Below are positions 18,626 to 40,627 of a stretch of 41,687 nucleotides of DNA, piece by piece (position 1 is the first letter of the stretch; every line of letters begins with the position of its first letter). The stretch spans positions 1-41,687 of the forward strand of contig CALRGQ010000006.1 in assembly GCA_943357915.1 (NCBI GenBank), written 5' to 3'. Under the pieces are notes generated by a model, which did not search any database, was not told the origin of the DNA, and was given only the letters and a program-made list of their open reading frames with translations. The stretch is from Candidatus Peribacteria bacterium (lineage in GTDB: Bacteria > Patescibacteriota > Gracilibacteria > Peribacterales > Peribacteraceae). Position numbers and translations under genes: made by a program.

Positions 18626-19147
18626 TTATGAGTTTCGGCCAGGGACTACCCAGCCGAGGAATTGGAAATGATATCGGTAATGAAACTGATAATCAATCAG
18701 ATTGATCTTGCTCTTGCTATTTCCCTTTCTGAGATAGTAACCGAAGGACGAAGAACCGCCAAAGGGAAAGAAGTCCCCTGCGCCACTCCTGTGACTTGAA
18801 ACAGTCACGTCATCCGGTGATGTGCGGGAACTGTTGAGAGTCAGTGCCTTGGCTTCCGCGAGTGTGATCTCTCTGCCTTCATTCTTTTTCGTATCATGTA
18901 AAAAAATCCGATCCGTATAGCTTGGATTATAGTCCACTTGAACCAACGAGTTATTTTCAACAATATAGCCTTGCTTCGAAGAGTCGTCACAGCTGGTTCC
19001 GGAATTGCACGCTATATAGACAAAATTGTAATCAGTCTTCAGGAAAAGCGACGGTAGGTACAGGCTCAAAGCAATGATCACTATGAGCGCGACTGGCAGC
19101 AGAAAAGCAAGAATGATGATGAAGTTTTTCTTGATCAAATCTTTCAT
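18626..19147 (-). CDS. Tandem paralog 1: membrane-anchored extracytoplasmic protein, shortened
   Basis: 173 residues. An N-terminal anchor MKDLIKKN plus a long hydrophobic helix (about 9-33) is nearly the same in all three copies; the rest should lie outside the membrane. Shared motifs are TDRIFLHDT, EITLAEAKALTLNS, SPDDVTVSS, the glycine-serine run FFPFGGSSSFGYYL and the end FQFLGWVVPGR. Two cysteines (IACNSGTSC) may form a disulfide. This copy lacks about 22 residues that in the other two hold a DxDxDG calcium-loop-like motif. No family is recognised. The upstream TACAAT sits 6 nt from the ATG. Confidence 0.75.
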   Translation of the reverse strand: MKDLIKKNFIIILAFLLPVALIVIIALSLYLPSLFLKTDYNFVYIACNSGTSCDDSSKQGYIVENNSLVQVDYNPSYTDRIFLHDTKKNEGREITLAEAKALTLNSSRTSPDDVTVSSHRSGAGDFFPFGGSSSFGYYLRKGNSKSKINLIDYQFHYRYHFQFLGWVVPGRNS

Positions 19148-19245
19148 GGACGTATTGTAGTCTGGACGGGCTTTGTAAACAATGAACTCTCGGCTAACTA
19201 CTTCAGTAGTTCTGCCTTGTTTATAGAATGCTTTCGTAAAAATAA
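19148..19245 (-). repeat. 98-bp spacer, copy 1, nearly identical to 19834-19931
   Basis: The two spacers differ at about three positions. Each contains the promoter and a perfect hairpin AACTACT/AGTAGTT (19196-19202 and 19205-19211) about 50 nt upstream of the ATG. Confidence 0.75.
19154..19182 (-). promoter_or_regulatory. Promoter of tandem paralog 1
   Basis: On the - strand TTGTTT (19182-19177), 17 nt, TACAAT (19159-19154), 6 nt, ATG at 19147. The same arrangement precedes paralog 2. Confidence 0.6.
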
Positions 19246-19833
19246 TCAGCTTCGGCCAGGGACTACCCAGCCGAGGAATTGAAAATTAATTTGGTAGGGA
19301 TATAGCTCATTGCTATTGATCAGGTTCAGTTTGCTCCTGCTACGTCCTTTGGTGAGATAGTAACCATGTGAGGAAGATCCTCCGCCAAATGGGAAGAACT
19401 CTCCGCCGTTTCTGCTATAGCGGCTTGAAACTGTCACGCCATCGGGTGATGTGAGCAGATTATTAAGGGTAAATTGCTTAGCTCTCTTAAACGTTATCTC
19501 TCTGGCTTCATTCAATTCTGTGTCATACAAAAAGATGCGATCCGTGAATCCTGAATTGAAATCAGGCTTACCGTCTTTATCCTGATCCAGAGTAGTATCT
19601 ACAGTTTTCTGAACCAACGTTTCGTTCTCAACGCTATAACGTAGCTTCAGGTAGTCATTACAGCGATACAGATAATAATCACTCATGTCTGTGCATGTTG
19701 TAAAGATAAAGTTGTAGTCAGTCTTTAGGAAAAGCGACGGAATATATGTACTCAAAGCCACGATGGCTAAAAGCCCGACTGGTAACAGAAAAGCAAGAAT
19801 GATGACGAAGTTTTTCTTGATCAAATCTTTCAT
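19246..19833 (-). CDS. Tandem paralog 2: membrane-anchored extracytoplasmic protein
   Basis: 195 residues, same plan as its neighbours: MKDLIKKN, one hydrophobic anchor (about 9-33), then an outside domain. Two cysteines frame a tyrosine-rich stretch (TTCTDMSDYYLYRCNDYL). DQDKDGKPD (about 82-90) matches the DxDxDG calcium-binding loop seen in dockerins and thrombospondin type 3 repeats. Then TDRIFLYDT, SPDGVTVSS, FFPFGGGSSSHGYYLTKGRS and the end FQFLGWVVPGRS. No known family; an envelope or surface role is inferred. Confidence 0.75.
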   Translation of the reverse strand: MKDLIKKNFVIILAFLLPVGLLAIVALSTYIPSLFLKTDYNFIFTTCTDMSDYYLYRCNDYLKLRYSVENETLVQKTVDTTLDQDKDGKPDFNSGFTDRIFLYDTELNEAREITFKRAKQFTLNNLLTSPDGVTVSSRYSRNGGEFFPFGGGSSSHGYYLTKGRSRSKLNLINSNELYPYQINFQFLGWVVPGRS

Positions 19834-19931
19834 GGACGCATTGTAGTCTGGACGGGCTTTGTAAACAATGAACTCTCGGCTAACTACTTCAGTAGTTCTG
19901 TCTTGTTTATAGAATGCTTTCGTAAAAATTA
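19834..19931 (-). repeat. 98-bp spacer, copy 2
   Basis: Contains TACAAT (19845-19840) 6 nt before the ATG at 19833, and the hairpin at 19882-19888/19891-19897. Almost identical to 19148-19245. Confidence 0.75.
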
Positions 19932-20519
19932 TCAGCTTCGACCAGGGACTATCCAGCCAATAAATTGAAAATTATTTTGGTAGTAATACGATTTATTGCT
20001 ATTGATAATATTGAGCTTGCTCCTACTATTCCCCTTTGTAAGGTAGTAACCATACGAGGAAGATCCTCCACCAAATGGGAAAAACTCTCCGCTGCTTCTG
20101 CTATCGTGGCTTGAAACGGTTATGCCATCCGGTGACGTCAGGAGGCTATTCAGGGTCAATGCCTTGGCTTCCGCAAGTGTTATCTCTCTACTTTCGTTTT
20201 TTTCTGTGTCATGCAAAAAGATACGATCCGTATATGTAGCATTATAATCAGGCTTACCGTCATTATTGAGATCCTGCGTGTAATCCACCGGTTTCTGAAC
20301 CAACGTGTTGTTTTCAACGCCATAGCGTAGCTTCAAGTAGTCATCGCAGCGATACGGATAATAATCGTTTCCGTCAGTGCATGCTGTATAGACAAAATTA
20401 TAGTCAGTCGATATGAAAAGCGACGGTAGGTACAGGCTCAAAGCAATGATCACTATGAGCGCGACTGGTAGCAAAAAAGCGAGGATGATAACAAAGTTTT
20501 TTTTGAGCAATTCTTTCAT
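19932..20519 (-). CDS. Tandem paralog 3: membrane-anchored extracytoplasmic protein
   Basis: 195 residues, first of the three in transcription order. Hydrophobic anchor about 9-33. Two cysteines in TACTDGNDYYPYRCDDYLK, then the calcium-loop-like DLNNDGKPD, TDRIFLHDT, EITLAEAKALTLNS, SPDGITVSS, FFPFGGGSSSYGYYLTKGNS and FQFIGWIVPGRS. TACAAT (20531-20526) is 6 nt before the ATG, but the rest of its upstream region has diverged from the other spacers, and only a shorter ACTA/TAGT hairpin remains. It is transcribed away from rpoD, sharing the 100-bp intergenic space with its promoter. Confidence 0.75.
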   Translation of the reverse strand: MKELLKKNFVIILAFLLPVALIVIIALSLYLPSLFISTDYNFVYTACTDGNDYYPYRCDDYLKLRYGVENNTLVQKPVDYTQDLNNDGKPDYNATYTDRIFLHDTEKNESREITLAEAKALTLNSLLTSPDGITVSSHDSRSSGEFFPFGGGSSSYGYYLTKGNSRSKLNIINSNKSYYYQNNFQFIGWIVPGRS

Positions 20520-35148: not shown

Positions 35149-36924
35149 ATGCAACAACTTTTTTCCTCTATTTTTGGCCTCATCAAGCGCGGATATCGGT
35201 TTGTCCGTCGTCATATGAAATCCAGTATTGCCGTCGTCATTTTTGTCATCATTGGCTTATCAGCCTATGCGGTTACACGTCCAAGCAAACCGGAGTTCGT
35301 CACGGAGCTCGCACAGCGTAGAGATCTGAAACAAACTGTGGAAGCAGTTGGAACGGTTGTTTCAGAAAAAGATCTACAGTTGCAGTTTTCGTCGATCGAC
35401 GTTGTTGCGAAAGTTTCGGTGAAAGAAGGTGACCGTGTGAAGGCCGGGCAAATGCTTACAGCTCTTCGTTCCGGGACATTGTCCGCGAGCATCGCAAGTG
35501 CCAGTGCCAATGTACAGTCGGCGCAGGCAGCTCTGACGGCACTGGAGCAAGGCAGTCGTCCTGAAGACATCGCCATTGCTGAAGCTGGTGTGAATAATAA
35601 ACGTGCGTCACTGCAGGTTGCGGAGCAAACGAGGACAAGTGCTGATGCCAACCTGACCATCGCGCAGACTCAGCTGACGACGCTCAGAAACGAAGTTGAC
35701 ATCAATCTTGCCGGACAAGTTTCCGCGGTTGGTAGTACGATTTCTCAACAACTAGCGACTGCGAAAACAGCAGTTTTTGCAATTCGTGGAGTCTTTAACG
35801 CCAATGATGTGAGTGATGCGGTCTCAAAATCTCAGCCAACTGCTTACGACACGCTCGTTTTCAATATGAATTCGATCGAGACGGAGATTACTGCTGCGCA
35901 GAACACGAGCGCTCCCATCAACTACCAAGATGCGTTACAGAAACTACAACGTGCCCGCACACTTGTCTCACAGTCGACGGACATCGCCAACCGTGCGTAC
36001 GATATCGTCTCGAATCTTGCGCTGACGTCGTACTTCACAAATACCTCTCGCGAGACGAATAAAACGACGATCGCGACGCAGAAATCTGCAGTGCAGACAG
36101 CGCTCGGAACCATGGATAGTTCCATCAAATCACTTCAGGACGCTTCTGCTGGCTACGACTCGAAAATCGCAACGCAGCAGTCTACGATCGTGAGCCTTAC
36201 CGGTACTCGTGATCGTGCGAAGGCCGATATCATTACGTATCAGACATTACTCGTGATTGAGGAAGCGCAGCTCGCACTCAAAAAGGCGCCCGCCCGCCAG
36301 ACGGATATTGATGCCGCCCGCGCCCGCGTACGTCAGTCTCAGGCTGATGTGGCTCGTGCAGCTTCCCAATACAGAGATACGATTCTTACCGCTCCTGTTG
36401 ATGGTATTGTCACGAAAGTGAATGTAAAAGTAGGCGAGATTCGTCCATCCTCTGAGCCTTCCGTTACGATGCTCGGTAACTCACCGTATCGCATTGAAAT
36501 GTTCGTCTCTGAAGTAGACATTCCGAAAGTAGTACTAGGACAGACCGGATCCATCACTCTGGATGCATTCAGAGGAATGCCGATCAGTCTGCGAGTAGGT
36601 ACTATCGATACTGCTTTTACAGACAAAGATGGCGTACCAAAATACCGCGTGAAGCTTGATTTCCTAACGCCGCCTGAGGGGTTCAAAGTCGGTATGACTG
36701 GTGATGCTGAGATAACGACCGGTGAACGAAAAAACGTCATCACTGTCCCGCTTCGCTCTGTCATTGAATCCGCCAGCGGCAGTTTCATTGTTCGCGTACG
36801 GAAAGACGATGGCGTGAATTTTGAAGAGCGAGCGGTGACGACGGGTATGGAAGGCCAGGGCGGTAGCCTCGAAGTGACAGGGGTGAACGAAGGTGAAGTT
36901 GTGATTGTTCTCATCAAAGAATAA
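35149..36924 (+). CDS. MacA/HlyD-family membrane fusion protein
   Basis: 591 residues, longer than MacA (371). One membrane helix (about 24-42) anchors it, followed by a split lipoyl-like domain (about 55-105 and 405-440), a very long coiled coil in between (about 105-400, alanine-, glutamine- and threonine-rich), a beta-barrel domain (about 440-510) and a membrane-proximal domain. The extended hairpin suggests reach across a thick envelope or to another partner. The stop overlaps the ATPase start by one base (TAATG). The -10 could be TATTAG (35137-35142), 6 nt from the ATG. Confidence 0.87.
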   Translation: MQQLFSSIFGLIKRGYRFVRRHMKSSIAVVIFVIIGLSAYAVTRPSKPEFVTELAQRRDLKQTVEAVGTVVSEKDLQLQFSSIDVVAKVSVKEGDRVKAGQMLTALRSGTLSASIASASANVQSAQAALTALEQGSRPEDIAIAEAGVNNKRASLQVAEQTRTSADANLTIAQTQLTTLRNEVDINLAGQVSAVGSTISQQLATAKTAVFAIRGVFNANDVSDAVSKSQPTAYDTLVFNMNSIETEITAAQNTSAPINYQDALQKLQRARTLVSQSTDIANRAYDIVSNLALTSYFTNTSRETNKTTIATQKSAVQTALGTMDSSIKSLQDASAGYDSKIATQQSTIVSLTGTRDRAKADIITYQTLLVIEEAQLALKKAPARQTDIDAARARVRQSQADVARAASQYRDTILTAPVDGIVTKVNVKVGEIRPSSEPSVTMLGNSPYRIEMFVSEVDIPKVVLGQTGSITLDAFRGMPISLRVGTIDTAFTDKDGVPKYRVKLDFLTPPEGFKVGMTGDAEITTGERKNVITVPLRSVIESASGSFIVRVRKDDGVNFEERAVTTGMEGQGGSLEVTGVNEGEVVIVLIKE

Positions 36925-37661
36925 TGACCAAGTCCTTGCCTGTCCTGATCGAACTGCAGGATCTGTGTAAGTCATACATGAATGACGATGTTGTGACCCC
37001 TGTTTTGTACGATATCAATCTTCAGATCGCTAAAGGTGAATTTGTCGCCATCATGGGTCCGTCCGGTTCCGGCAAATCCACACTGATGCACATTCTTGGA
37101 TTTTTGGACGGCTATACGTCCGGCCGATATCTGTTTCAGGGTCAGTTCACGAATACGTTTGATGATAATGAGCTTGCCCGTATTCGCGCTACCAGAGTCA
37201 GCTTCGTCTTCCAGGCTTTTAACTTGCTTGCACGGACGACAGTCCTAGAAAACGTCATGCTGCCGCTCTTGTATCATCCGTCTATTCCGGTCTCTGAGCG
37301 TGTTTCACTTTCTGAGAAAGCCGTAAAAACAGTCGGTCTTCAGGATCGTTCTTCGTATCTCACAAGTCAGCTCTCCGGTGGACAAAAGCAAAGAGTCGCC
37401 ATTGCTCGTGCGCTCGTCACCAACCCTGATGTGATTTTTGCTGATGAGCCGACTGGTAACCTGGATTCAGCGTCCGGAGTTGCGGTGATGCAAGCACTTC
37501 AAAAGCTCAATGATGAAGGTCATACGATCATTCTGGTGACGCACGAACGTACAACAGCCGAACATGCTAAGCGTATCATCCATATTCGGGACGGCCGCAT
37601 CGTGAGTGACTCGACTGATTTTAAGAGAGTGATTGCAGGAGAAACGAAAAATTTAAAGTGA
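36924..37661 (+). CDS. MacB/LolD-type ABC transporter ATPase
   Basis: 245 residues. Walker [10 protein letters not shown] (45-53), signature LSGGQ (150-154), Walker B VIFADEP (D174, E175) followed by TGNLDS, and the H-loop histidine in ILVTHERTT. This is the MacB/LolD/FtsE subgroup, whose permeases work by mechanotransmission rather than by carrying substrates through the membrane. Its start overlaps the fusion-protein stop, so both are translated together. It should drive the two permeases that follow. Confidence 0.93.
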
Positions 37662-37715
37662 ATAATGAAAAACTATGGAGCATCTCATATTTCACCATTG
37701 GCATTCCGTTCGGTA

Positions 37716-37735
37716 TTTTTCACTTTTCACTATTA
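37716..37735 (+). repeat. TTTTCAC-type repeat between ATPase and permease 1
   Basis: TTTTTCACTTTTCACTATTA lies in the 90-bp gap of the operon. The same heptamer motif recurs in the next gap and, reversed, at 7654-7675. Confidence 0.5.
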
Positions 37736-37751
37736 GTTTTTCATTTGCTCG

Positions 37752-38978
37752 ATGAGATTATCAGATATTTCCCATGCGGCATTCAAAGGCGTCACAGTCA
37801 ACGCCATGCGTTCACTGCTGACGATGCTCGGCATCATCATCGGGGTGGGTTCTGTCGTGCTCATGAGTTCGGTCGGCGAGAGCATGGAAGGCGTGATTCT
37901 TGGGCAGATCTCGAGTCTTGGCCCGAAAAGTATGGTGATATTTCCAGGGAAACAGGAAGGCGGCGCTCAAGGTGTTATGGCCGGTTTTGATAGTCTGACA
38001 TTTGAGGATTTGCGGGAATTGGAGCAGCTGAAGAGTATCGACAAACTGGCTCCGGTGATTTTCATCACGGGCCGGACGTCGTACGGTAGAGAAGAAGGTA
38101 CGCCGCAGGTCTTTGGTGTTGATGATAATTTTTTCAAGAACCAAAATATCAGTGCGCGTGAAGGACGGCTTCTGGAAAAAGATGACAGTGACGGTGGTAA
38201 AGCAATCGCCGTACTTGGCAGTGATACTGCCGATAAGTTCTTTGGCTCCATCAACCCCATCGGAAAGCGCATCAAAGTGGGGAATAATCATTACACGGTG
38301 GTCGGAGTCGCAAAGGCGCTGGGGTCACAGTTCTTCCAAAATGCCGATGAGCGTGTCTACGTACCGTTCTCCGTTGCTCGTACGGTCACCGGTCAGAAAT
38401 ATTTGAACTACATTACGATGGTCGCGACTGATAGTTTTGATCTCGCATTTGATGACGTCAGATCATTACTTCGTCGTCGCCATGGTATTGATACTTCTTT
38501 AAACGATGAGAAAAAGGATGACTTCGTTGTGCGTTCCTCGGCGCAGGCAAATGAGATTTTGGGCTCGGTCTCGCTTGGCTTAACGCTCTTCATCACGACG
38601 ATTGCGGCAATCTCACTCCTTGTCGGTGGTATCGGTATCATGAATATCATGCTTGTATCTGTGACCGAGCGCACCCAAGAGATTGGTCTTCGTAAAGCTC
38701 TCGGTGCAAAAGGCAGAGACGTTCTTCTGCAGTTTCTTTTCGAGGCGATTCTCCTGACGATGATTGGCGGTGTCATCGGTCAGATTCTCGGTATCGGTCT
38801 CGCGTTCGTCATCGCGCTTATTGTGAAGAATTTTCTGGCCAAGTATGTTTTTGCGATTTCTTTGAACGCCGTTGTCGTTTCATTTTTCATGGCAGTTGCC
38901 ACTGGCATAGCCTTCGGCATCTCACCAGCCAGAAAGGCTGCTGCACTTCATCCCATCGAAGCTCTCCGTTATGAGTGA
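37752..38978 (+). CDS. MacB/FtsX-like ABC permease 1
   Basis: 408 residues. MacB fold: one N-terminal helix (about 17-40, SLLTMLGIIIGVGSVVLMSS), a large extracytoplasmic domain (about 50-265) and three C-terminal helices (about 275-300, 325-355, 365-395) with the conserved GGIGIMNIMLVSVTERTQEIGLRKALGA between the first two. The end ISPARKAAALHPIEALRYE is standard. The 90-bp gap from the ATPase contains a repeat; no separate promoter is seen. Confidence 0.92.
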   Translation: MRLSDISHAAFKGVTVNAMRSLLTMLGIIIGVGSVVLMSSVGESMEGVILGQISSLGPKSMVIFPGKQEGGAQGVMAGFDSLTFEDLRELEQLKSIDKLAPVIFITGRTSYGREEGTPQVFGVDDNFFKNQNISAREGRLLEKDDSDGGKAIAVLGSDTADKFFGSINPIGKRIKVGNNHYTVVGVAKALGSQFFQNADERVYVPFSVARTVTGQKYLNYITMVATDSFDLAFDDVRSLLRRRHGIDTSLNDEKKDDFVVRSSAQANEILGSVSLGLTLFITTIAAISLLVGGIGIMNIMLVSVTERTQEIGLRKALGAKGRDVLLQFLFEAILLTMIGGVIGQILGIGLAFVIALIVKNFLAKYVFAISLNAVVVSFFMAVATGIAFGISPARKAAALHPIEALRYE

Positions 38979-39000
38979 GTATAGTTTGCAGAAAATCTTA

Positions 39001-39036
39001 TTCACTTTTCACTTTCCACTTTTCACTTCTCACTAA
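39001..39036 (+). repeat. TTTTCAC-type tandem repeat between the two permeases
   Basis: Five consecutive variants of TTTTCAC (7-8 nt period). They lie between the stop of permease 1 and the likely start of permease 2 and would be read as SLFTFHFSLLT if translation began at GTG 38975. Confidence 0.6.
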
Positions 39037-39040
39037 TACC

Positions 39041-40255
39041 TTGCTTCTCTCCGACATCTTTCAGACGGCAGCCAAAGCGATTCTCGTGAATAAGAATCGT
39101 TCACTCCTGACGATGCTCGGCATTATTATCGGAGTTGCGTCCGTGGTGCTCATGGTCAGCGTCGGCCGTACGTTCCAGAGCTATATTTTGTCGCAAATTG
39201 AGTCCATTGGTACGAACATGGTGGAAGTCATCCCTTCTGGTCTGGACAAATTTGGCGGAAATCTTACCGGACTTTCGTACGATGACTACGTTGCCGTGAA
39301 AGGACTTTCTACCGTGGAACGTGTGTCACCGGTCATTCTCGTCGGCAAGCCTATCACGTATGGCAAAGAAGAAATCTCACCTATGATCATGGGCGCCTAT
39401 CGTGAATTCGCAGGAAACTACGGTCTGACGGTTGATCAAGGTCGAGAACTCAGCCAAAGCGATGAACAAGGAGCGTCAGCAGTTGCGGTTATCGGAGCAC
39501 AAACTGCTGAGGACCTCTTTGGCAATGCGGAGCCACTTGGTAAACGCATGACGATTGGCGATGCAACGTTTACCGTCGTCGGTGTGCTCGTGAAGAAAGG
39601 CTCACTGCTGCTACAGGATTTCGATAAAATCGTTCTTATTCCTTTCAGTACCGCGCGATCTGTTACGGGCCAGCGGCATCTGACGTACATGACAATGCGA
39701 GCCGTCGGAGACCCTGATCTTGCGCAGCAGGACATCACCGAGCTTCTTCGGCAACGCCATAACATCAAAAATCCTGAGAATGATCCGGATAAAGATGACT
39801 TCATCGCACGTTCAGCTGAGCAAGTCACAGAAACCATCAACGCCGTAACGCTCGGACTGACGGTGTTCCTGTCACTCGTCGCAGCTATCTCACTCCTGGT
39901 TGGCGGTATCGGCATCATGAATATCATGCTTGTGTCTGTCACCGAACGGACGCGCGAAATAGGCCTCAGAAAAGCACTGGGTGCACGTCGGCGGGATATT
40001 CTTCTGCAGTTTCTGCTTGAGGCCGTCAGCTTAACGGTCAGTGGCGGAATTATCGGACTTGTGATCGGCATCTTTCTTGGTTGGTTTTTGACACAGCTTG
40101 CAGCCAAGGCTCTTGGTGAGATTCATTTTATTCTCTCTATCTCTTCAGTCATCCTGGCGCTCATCATGGCCATCGGTACCGGACTTGTCTTCGGTATTTT
40201 CCCCGCTCGCAAAGCGGCTTTGCTGAGTCCAATGGAAGCGTTGCGATATGAATAA
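39041..40255 (+). CDS. MacB/FtsX-like ABC permease 2
   Basis: 404 residues from a TTG at 39041, whose product (MLLSDIFQTAAKAILVNKNR) aligns with permease 1 (MRLSDISHAAFKGVTVNAMR). A GTG at 38975 overlapping the previous stop (GTGA) is also in frame, but its first 22 codons are repeat-derived. Same fold as permease 1: N-terminal helix, outside domain, three C-terminal helices and GGIGIMNIMLVSVTERTREIGLRKALGARR. Clearly a paralog of permease 1 but well diverged, so the pair may form a heterodimer over one ATPase. Confidence 0.9.
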   Translation: MLLSDIFQTAAKAILVNKNRSLLTMLGIIIGVASVVLMVSVGRTFQSYILSQIESIGTNMVEVIPSGLDKFGGNLTGLSYDDYVAVKGLSTVERVSPVILVGKPITYGKEEISPMIMGAYREFAGNYGLTVDQGRELSQSDEQGASAVAVIGAQTAEDLFGNAEPLGKRMTIGDATFTVVGVLVKKGSLLLQDFDKIVLIPFSTARSVTGQRHLTYMTMRAVGDPDLAQQDITELLRQRHNIKNPENDPDKDDFIARSAEQVTETINAVTLGLTVFLSLVAAISLLVGGIGIMNIMLVSVTERTREIGLRKALGARRRDILLQFLLEAVSLTVSGGIIGLVIGIFLGWFLTQLAAKALGEIHFILSISSVILALIMAIGTGLVFGIFPARKAALLSPMEALRYE

Positions 40256-40283
40256 AAAAAACGCCACCCTTGCGGATGGCGTT
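40254..40283 (-). terminator. Strong rho-independent terminator of the histone-fold gene
   Basis: AACGCCACCC (40260-40269) pairs with GGATGGCGTT (40274-40283) with one mismatch around TTGC. On the - strand eight T follow. The 5' bases overlap the stop of permease 2, so it also lies where the operon transcript ends. Confidence 0.85.
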
Positions 40284-40302
40284 CTTGAAAGTCGTTAGGA
40301 AA

Positions 40303-40467
40303 TTAGCAGTCGCAGCCGTAAACGGTCTGGCGCTTGTTCTCCTTGCAGCGGGAAGCTGCCTTCTTGACGAGGTTCTCACACTCCTTGGCGAGAGCATCGC
40401 AGAAATCACCGCCGCAGCGGAGACCCATCTTGGATAGAGTTTCCTTAACGTGGGACTGAACGATCAT
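40303..40467 (-). CDS. Cysteine-rich bacterial histone-fold protein
   Basis: 54 residues. The plan fits a single histone fold of the short bacterial type (Bd0055/DUF1931-like): helix 1 MIVQSHVKETLSKMG, loop 1 LRCGG, long helix 2 DFCDALAKECENLVKKAASR, loop 2 with KENKRQT, then a short helix 3. The R-x-T pair in loop 2 is the usual DNA-contact feature. Unlike known relatives it has six cysteines, at positions where polar or hydrophobic residues are usual, including the ending CDC. It could be metal-binding or redox-controlled. A longer in-frame start at 40563 adds 32 unrelated residues. A strong terminator follows; TACTAT (40489-40484) is a possible -10. Confidence 0.72.
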   Translation of the reverse strand: MIVQSHVKETLSKMGLRCGGDFCDALAKECENLVKKAASRCKENKRQTVYGCDC

Positions 40468-40627
40468 GGGGAATAGGGGAAAGATAGTAGATGAACGAGA
40501 TTCTAGAGTGCTCTTATGAACCAGCGCAAGGCTGTATTGCGACAGGAATTGACAATAAATCACAAAATTGTGAATGAGTAGTACATTGCTTGGCTACTTT
40601 TCCACACAAAATGTGATGATTTTTGCA

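Follow-up and report, generated by a model that had tools for sequence, protein, structure and literature searches.

Positions 40303 to 40467 of the 41,687-nucleotide stretch of DNA that was analysed ('the window') encode, on the minus strand, a real and conserved protein of 54 residues. Judging by its sequence and predicted structure, this protein is an alpha3 face-to-face (FtF) histone, and it is one that carries six cysteines. The histone type, i.e., tetrameric FtF, is known. What is new is that six cysteines have been added to it, and kept, in one sub-lineage of an uncultured group of bacteria. The gene can be described as follows:

40303..40467, minus strand: coding sequence of the 54-residue, six-cysteine FtF-type histone, with its ATG at 40467-40465 and its stop codon at 40305-40303

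Translation of the minus strand gives MIVQSHVKETLSKMGLRCGGDFCDALAKECENLVKKAASRCKENKRQTVYGCDC followed by the stop. A preliminary description, made from the letters alone, had proposed a 54-residue protein with an R-x-T loop and with cysteines in loop 1, along helix 2, and at the end (CDC), and on each of these points it holds. The cysteines, that is, are C18 in loop 1, C23, C30, and C41 in helix 2, and C52 and C54 at the protein's end, with R46-Q47-T48 as the R-x-T motif. The frame is taken to be real because length and start are the same in the eight closest genomes, of three genera, and because dN/dS among them is low. Particularly, the protein is exactly 54 residues long in all eight, starting at the same ATG, with a pairwise dN/dS of 0.02-0.18 and a dS of 0.3-1.3 except in one near-identical pair, in which the histone shows zero amino-acid changes. 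Homologs with a conserved frame, upon which the preliminary description had staked its claim, thus exist. Seven relatives, at 91-98% identity, come from Peribacteria MAGs, and in some relatives the ATG equivalent to that at 40467 is indeed the sole possible in-frame start. The list of open reading frames holds an 86-residue, GTG-initiated version as well (40303-40563), a longer start which conservation does not support.

That this protein has the short layout of a bacterial histone, as was also proposed, is what sequence and structure comparisons both point to. With the single sequence, the top matches in the PDB were HTkC (9F2C; E 1e-3) and HLp (9QT0; E 4e-3). A profile of 26 relatives gave HLp at E 8e-15, HTkC at 2.6e-12, and HBb at 2.6e-10. 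An AlphaFold2 model, run as a single chain from 127 sequences, has a pLDDT of 92.6 and helices at 2-13, 22-43, and 51-53, which is a histone fold with helix 3 shortened to one turn. Foldseek again puts HLp (9QT0) first in the PDB, at a TM of 0.92, a full-length rmsd of 1.4 A, a probability of 1.00, and an E of 6e-4; HTkC comes next and then HBb. This model supersedes an earlier one from 26 sequences (pLDDT 79), for which the Foldseek matches were nearly all histones, though not significant.

The residues said to define FtF histones are an R-x-T-x4-D motif, R48 and N52 of the tetramer, and a lysine in helix 1 (PMC11390915). The motif, or 'RD clamp', is complete here as R46-Q-T48-VYGC-D53. The tetramer residues, R48 and N52 in the numbering of the HMM, are R40 and N44, which precede R46 by six and two residues, respectively, just as in D4GZE0/HLp. 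The helix-1 lysine (K16 of the HMM) is K8, 32 positions before R40, and every homologue tabulated has K or R there. R40, N44, R46, T48, and D53 are invariant across 127 homologues.

Other histone types fit less well. 'Bacterial dimer' histones, i.e., those of the HBb type, are without the R and N by which an FtF tetramer is held together (PMC11390915), and as both R40 and N44 are present and conserved, that type is ruled out. DUF1931 (PF09123), the family which the preliminary description had offered, does not stand, since its members are pseudodimers with two folds per chain while the present protein is of 54 residues and one fold, and since its relatives are instead alpha3 face-to-face histones (HLp, HTkC). 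The window protein gave no DUF1931 match, and the best of any A1 member was at E 0.0055. A ZZ-type zinc-finger histone is excluded as well, there being no residues before the histone fold and the cysteines lying inside of that fold. Scanned by itself against Pfam and NCBIfam, the protein returned no meaningful match, these curated models missing the FtF family, and homologues match only weakly to CBFD_NFYB_HMF, DUF1931, and archaea_histone.

Where the cysteines would lie in an assembled histone can be read by analogy from HLp, to which the alignment is gap-free, with position n of the six-cysteine histone corresponding to n+9 of HLp (numbering and residue roles as in PMC12701072). C18 thus equates with T27, which touches the DNA backbone in each of the two HLp-DNA crystals; C23 with V32; C30 with L39, of the dimer core; C41 with T50, which adjoins the tetramer residue R49; C52 with T61; and C54 with F63. 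T61 and F63 belong to the dimer-dimer hydrogen-bond network, F63 also to the dimer core (PMC12701072). If HLp is a good guide, then these cysteines would be divided among the loop that contacts DNA, the core of the dimer, and the interface between dimers. In a histone dimer, furthermore, loop 1 of one chain sits beside loop 2 of the other, which in HLp means M26 and S28 against T56 and V58 (PMC12701072). Loop 1 therefore would neighbour the partner's helix 3 as well, plausibly bringing C18 and C23 near to the partner chain's C52 and C54, and near also to the opposing dimer.

The reading preferred here, to which I would give somewhat less than even credence, is of a DNA-wrapping FtF tetramer, abundant and working beside HU, in which the six cysteines serve as thiolate 'staples' between subunits, most probably with Zn2+ bound. 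Histone-fold dimers would pair into a ring of four subunits with DNA wrapped by it, as in HLp (~60 bp), and the protein would act as a general chromatin protein. The tetramer, the wrapping, and the nucleoid role are all extended from HLp. One sub-lineage would then have gained six cysteines where subunits and DNA meet: C18 and C23 at loop 1 and the start of helix 2, C30 in the dimer core, and C52 and C54, on the short helix 3, along with C41, at the end of helix 2, at the dimer-dimer interface. Zn2+, or another soft metal, might be held jointly by C18/C23 from one chain and C52/C54/C41 from its neighbour. The assembly of this histone on DNA could thereby come to depend on metal or on thiol state. 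Pairs of cysteines that sit at subunit junctions and that a cytosolic protein never loses are typical of structural metal sites. Metal is favoured on that basis together with a precedent, which is that C110 of histone H3, at the H3-H3' dimer interface, contributes to the binding of Cu2+ (PMC11988410). The stricter version, i.e., that thiolate sites for zinc or a soft metal lie between the subunits of the FtF tetramer and that DNA wrapping depends upon metal or thiol state, is more doubtful, though a real possibility. Metal binding, the cross-linking of dimers, and the sensing of redox state had each been suggested in the preliminary description, and the sequence would be compatible with any of the three.

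The same cysteines could instead constitute a redox switch, with a C18-C23 disulfide within the chain and C52/C54/C41 disulfides between dimers that would form under oxidative conditions, thereby locking the tetramer on DNA, loosening it, or cross-linking it. The mapping to subunit junctions and to the DNA-contacting loop suits this explanation, as does the conservation of the pairs C18-C23 and C52-C54; the archaeal histone MJ1647 moreover tolerates an engineered interdimer disulfide (PMC10516927), and the sister genomes are from lake and groundwater samples. The bacterial cytosol, however, is normally reducing, a disulfide between the two C110 of H3, which are separated by 6.2 A, is considered improbable (PMC11988410), and the locus has no linked gene for a redox enzyme or sensor, its conserved neighbour being an ABC exporter. 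A redox switch is rated as unlikely, if still to be taken seriously.

A further possibility is that this is an ordinary FtF histone in which the cysteines are tolerated, doing nothing more than packing, with no ligand or redox role and with their invariance only a matter of strong constraint, within a young clade, on a protein that is small and abundant. All six cysteines are invariant in eight of eight genomes, and among 148 relatives they occur together in seven distinct sequences, every one from that eight-genome clade. Yet the clade shows no variation at 46 of 54 positions in any case, such that invariance there is, on its own, weak evidence for a special role. The residues of relatives, too, are mainly S, T, or A at 18, 23, and 41 (P also at 23) and L or V at 30, which are similar in size to cysteine. 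And C52 is common: among 60 distinct Peribacteria sequences from outside of the clade it is found in 22, as the sole cysteine in 15. (Roughly one in three of the other Peribacteria histones keeps this C52, in a 'PCDL'-type ending, and the residue is at a dimer-dimer interface position of HLp.) Against mere tolerance are the number of cysteines, the lack of their loss, and their pairing. Cysteine makes up 0.94% of residues in the open reading frames of the window, versus six of 54 here, and six or more would have a P of ~1e-5 for one protein, uncorrected for its having been chosen from many; the preliminary description was right to see these cysteines as unusual, and archaeal histones are reported to be poor in cysteine relative to expectation (PMC13260811). 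No cysteine has been lost in eight genomes at a dS that is mostly 0.3-1.3, and the pairing of C18 with C23 is repeated in both archaea and bacteria. Simple packing is placed just behind the redox switch, as improbable too but likewise to be taken seriously.

Recurrence of cysteine pairs in other lineages is stronger evidence than invariance within the clade. Across the 148 sequences, C18 and C23 occur together in 22, C18 alone in nine, and C23 alone in none. C52 and C54 likewise occur together in nine, C52 without C54 in 28, and C54 without C52 in none. That C23 is never seen without C18, nor C54 without C52, is a pattern to be expected of paired ligands. Fisher P values for this pairing are inflated by phylogenetic non-independence, and a sign test on independent tree pairs for C18/C23 offers only three well-supported contrasts, too few for significance; the C18-C23 pairing can in part reflect shared ancestry.

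A tree was built without the six cysteine columns, leaving 48, and because these are so few, branches away from the clade's own junction are poorly resolved. At that junction the six-cysteine clade joins, with 97% SH-aLRT, G005 (C29, C52, C54) and G037 (C52, C54), and G038, a near-twin of G037, likewise has C52 and C54. The simplest order of gain would be stepwise: C52, then C52 plus C54 along with K45, Q47, and Y50, and then C18, C23, C30, and C41. C30 and C54 arose once each and C52 many times. As C18-C23 and C52-C54 arose separately, and each exists alone in relatives, a four-ligand C18/C23/C52/C54 site is not something that the relatives require. Given the partial sets that exist (C18-C23 alone, C52-C54 alone, C52 alone), the family indeed shares no single four-cysteine site. 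Conservation in relatives, which the preliminary description had suggested looking for, thus is complete within the clade and partial elsewhere.

The sequences surrounding the gene are these:

40524..40529, minus strand: -35-like element, TTGCGC / TTGTGC, 18 nt from the -10 box, from a seven-genome alignment
40500..40505, minus strand: -10 box, TAGAAT, from the same alignment and kept in most sister genomes (CTCTAGAATC; CTCTACAATC in two)
40468..40499, minus strand: pyrimidine-rich leader of 32 nt without a Shine-Dalgarno sequence, with the same kind found before 68 of 68 Peribacteria histone genes examined
40257..40286, minus strand: Rho-independent terminator, 16 nt past the stop codon, with a 13-bp stem, a loop of 4, and a U-run

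As its match is weak, the -35-like element is absent from a scan for consensus promoters, and its evidence is conservation. The preliminary description had credited the gene with a strong terminator of its own and, from that, with good expression. The terminator is borne out by a folding energy of -20.1 kcal/mol (z = -4.7 against shuffles), and expression finds independent support in codon usage. Taking the codon choice of EF-Tu as the reference, codon adaptation is 0.67 for the histone, 0.75 for EF-Tu itself, ~0.61 for HU (counting an unlikely N-terminal extension), and 0.33-0.48 for 24 genes of the window, and none of 2000 random 53-codon stretches from window genes reaches the histone's value. 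EF-Tu-like codon use, a conserved promoter, and a strong terminator together suggest that the histone gene is probably highly expressed.

As a separate observation, the leaders of the 68 Peribacteria histone genes are almost free of G (21 G in ~1632 nt) and without a Shine-Dalgarno sequence, and leaders of tuf and HU from the genome that contains the window are similarly pyrimidine-rich and without one. The 3' end of this genome's 16S rRNA has a degenerate anti-Shine-Dalgarno sequence, GGAATATCTCCTTA in place of GGATCACCTCCTT. Most members read are degenerate there, with GGAACACTTCC and GGAACGTTTCC as other variants, while some other families of the class retain the usual GGATCACCTCCTT. This suggests that the order has shifted to Shine-Dalgarno-independent initiation.

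The histone is near order-wide and single-copy, present in 68 of 74 genomes (~92%) of the order Peribacteria and in 55 of 57 of those of good quality. One HU-family gene is carried by 67 of the 74. Histone and HU hence coexist in Peribacteria, unlike in Leptospira, from which HU is reported to be absent (PMC12701072). Within the class, the histone is in 70 of 353 genomes, all from that order except for two, which belong to a single other family. An even sample of the phylum adds a few further families, and among sampled genomes of the class Aenigmatarchaeota it is in 93 of 156. A scan of viral_contigs found no relatives and no sign there of phage homologues. Most descriptions of bacterial FtF histones concern Spirochaetota, Planctomycetota, Bdellovibrionota, and Myxococcota (PMC11390915, PMC12701072). 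No paper on Peribacteria histones was found in the literature searched; the surveys' supplementary tables, which lie outside of that search, may already list such sequences. Tandem histones, with two FtF-type folds in a chain of ~120 residues, were seen as well, in four genomes, and apparently are fusion pseudodimers separate from DUF1931.

A function outside of chromatin, i.e., as a histone-fold microprotein that stores or delivers metal or that is a subunit of some other complex, might be read from the cysteine content (11%), the modest positive charge (K+R 10, D+E 7), and the presence of HU for packaging DNA, but is highly improbable given retention of the FtF DNA-binding and tetramer residues, the nearly order-wide single-copy distribution, and the codon use of a highly expressed gene.

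The gene stands alone in the window. Downstream and tail-to-tail with it is the following:

35149-40255, plus strand: MacA/MacB-type exporter operon, in which an ABC ATPase is joined by two permeases resembling FtsX and by a gene resembling those of membrane-fusion proteins, as named from sequence inspection

This arrangement is kept in five sister genomes, and partly in one more, while the exporter was not seen beside the more distant histones examined. With the genes convergent, a terminator between them, and no such adjacency among those distant histones, a functional link to the exporter is rejected. Elsewhere in the window, at 18626-20519 on the minus strand, are three tandem paralogues of ~173-195 residues, each starting MK[DE]L[IL]KKNF[IV]IILAFLLPV. 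These are probably membrane-anchored and represent a local triplication.

What this means, in the first place, is that a whole order of Patescibacteria almost universally carries an FtF histone next to HU, which makes the division of labour between histone and HU a testable question. Six cysteines within the core fold could in addition make a histone metal-binding or redox-responsive. The six-cysteine clade, along with relatives possessing one, two, or three to four cysteines, supplies a natural series with which to ask if metal or redox state can come to control how a histone assembles. If the metal-site reading is true, then this would be, to my knowledge, the first histone whose core fold holds multi-cysteine metal sites.

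Among known systems, the closest is HLp of Leptospira perolatii (PDB 9QT0-9QT2), a bacterial FtF histone of the same fold, with 35% identity over the ungapped alignment. Shared are the truncated helix 3, the RD clamp (R46-D53), R40, N44, and R46, and the layout of loops 1 and 2. HLp differs in having ~9 additional N-terminal residues, whereas the six-cysteine histone is without a tail, in having no cysteine at any of the six aligned positions, and in coming from a genus reported to lack HU; the six-cysteine histone differs also in having a tyrosine, at 50, where R or K is usual. HTkC of Thermococcus kodakarensis (PDB 9F2C), an archaeal FtF histone, is of the same family, is tail-less, and keeps the equivalent of R40, but has a loop 1 that is two residues longer and no such cysteines in the aligned stretch. 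FtF histones of Aenigmatarchaeota reach ~52% identity, and 14 of 71 distinct sequences display the same C-[GAS]-[GS]-[DE]-F-C motif at loop 1/helix 2. These motif-bearing histones are archaeal, however, and without C30, C41, C52, and C54. Often they are found beside a second FtF paralogue which has no cysteines. HBb/Bd0055 of Bdellovibrio has the same alpha3 histone fold (TM 0.82-0.85), including a one-turn helix 3, but is without the tetramer R and N that the six-cysteine histone possesses. Lastly, going by the R-x-T register, C110 of histone H3 presumably adjoins C41. The copper site to which C110 contributes, in the H3-H4 tetramer, likewise involves a cysteine that ends helix 2 and lies where two dimers meet (PMC11988410), though with a different tetramer geometry and with one cysteine rather than six.
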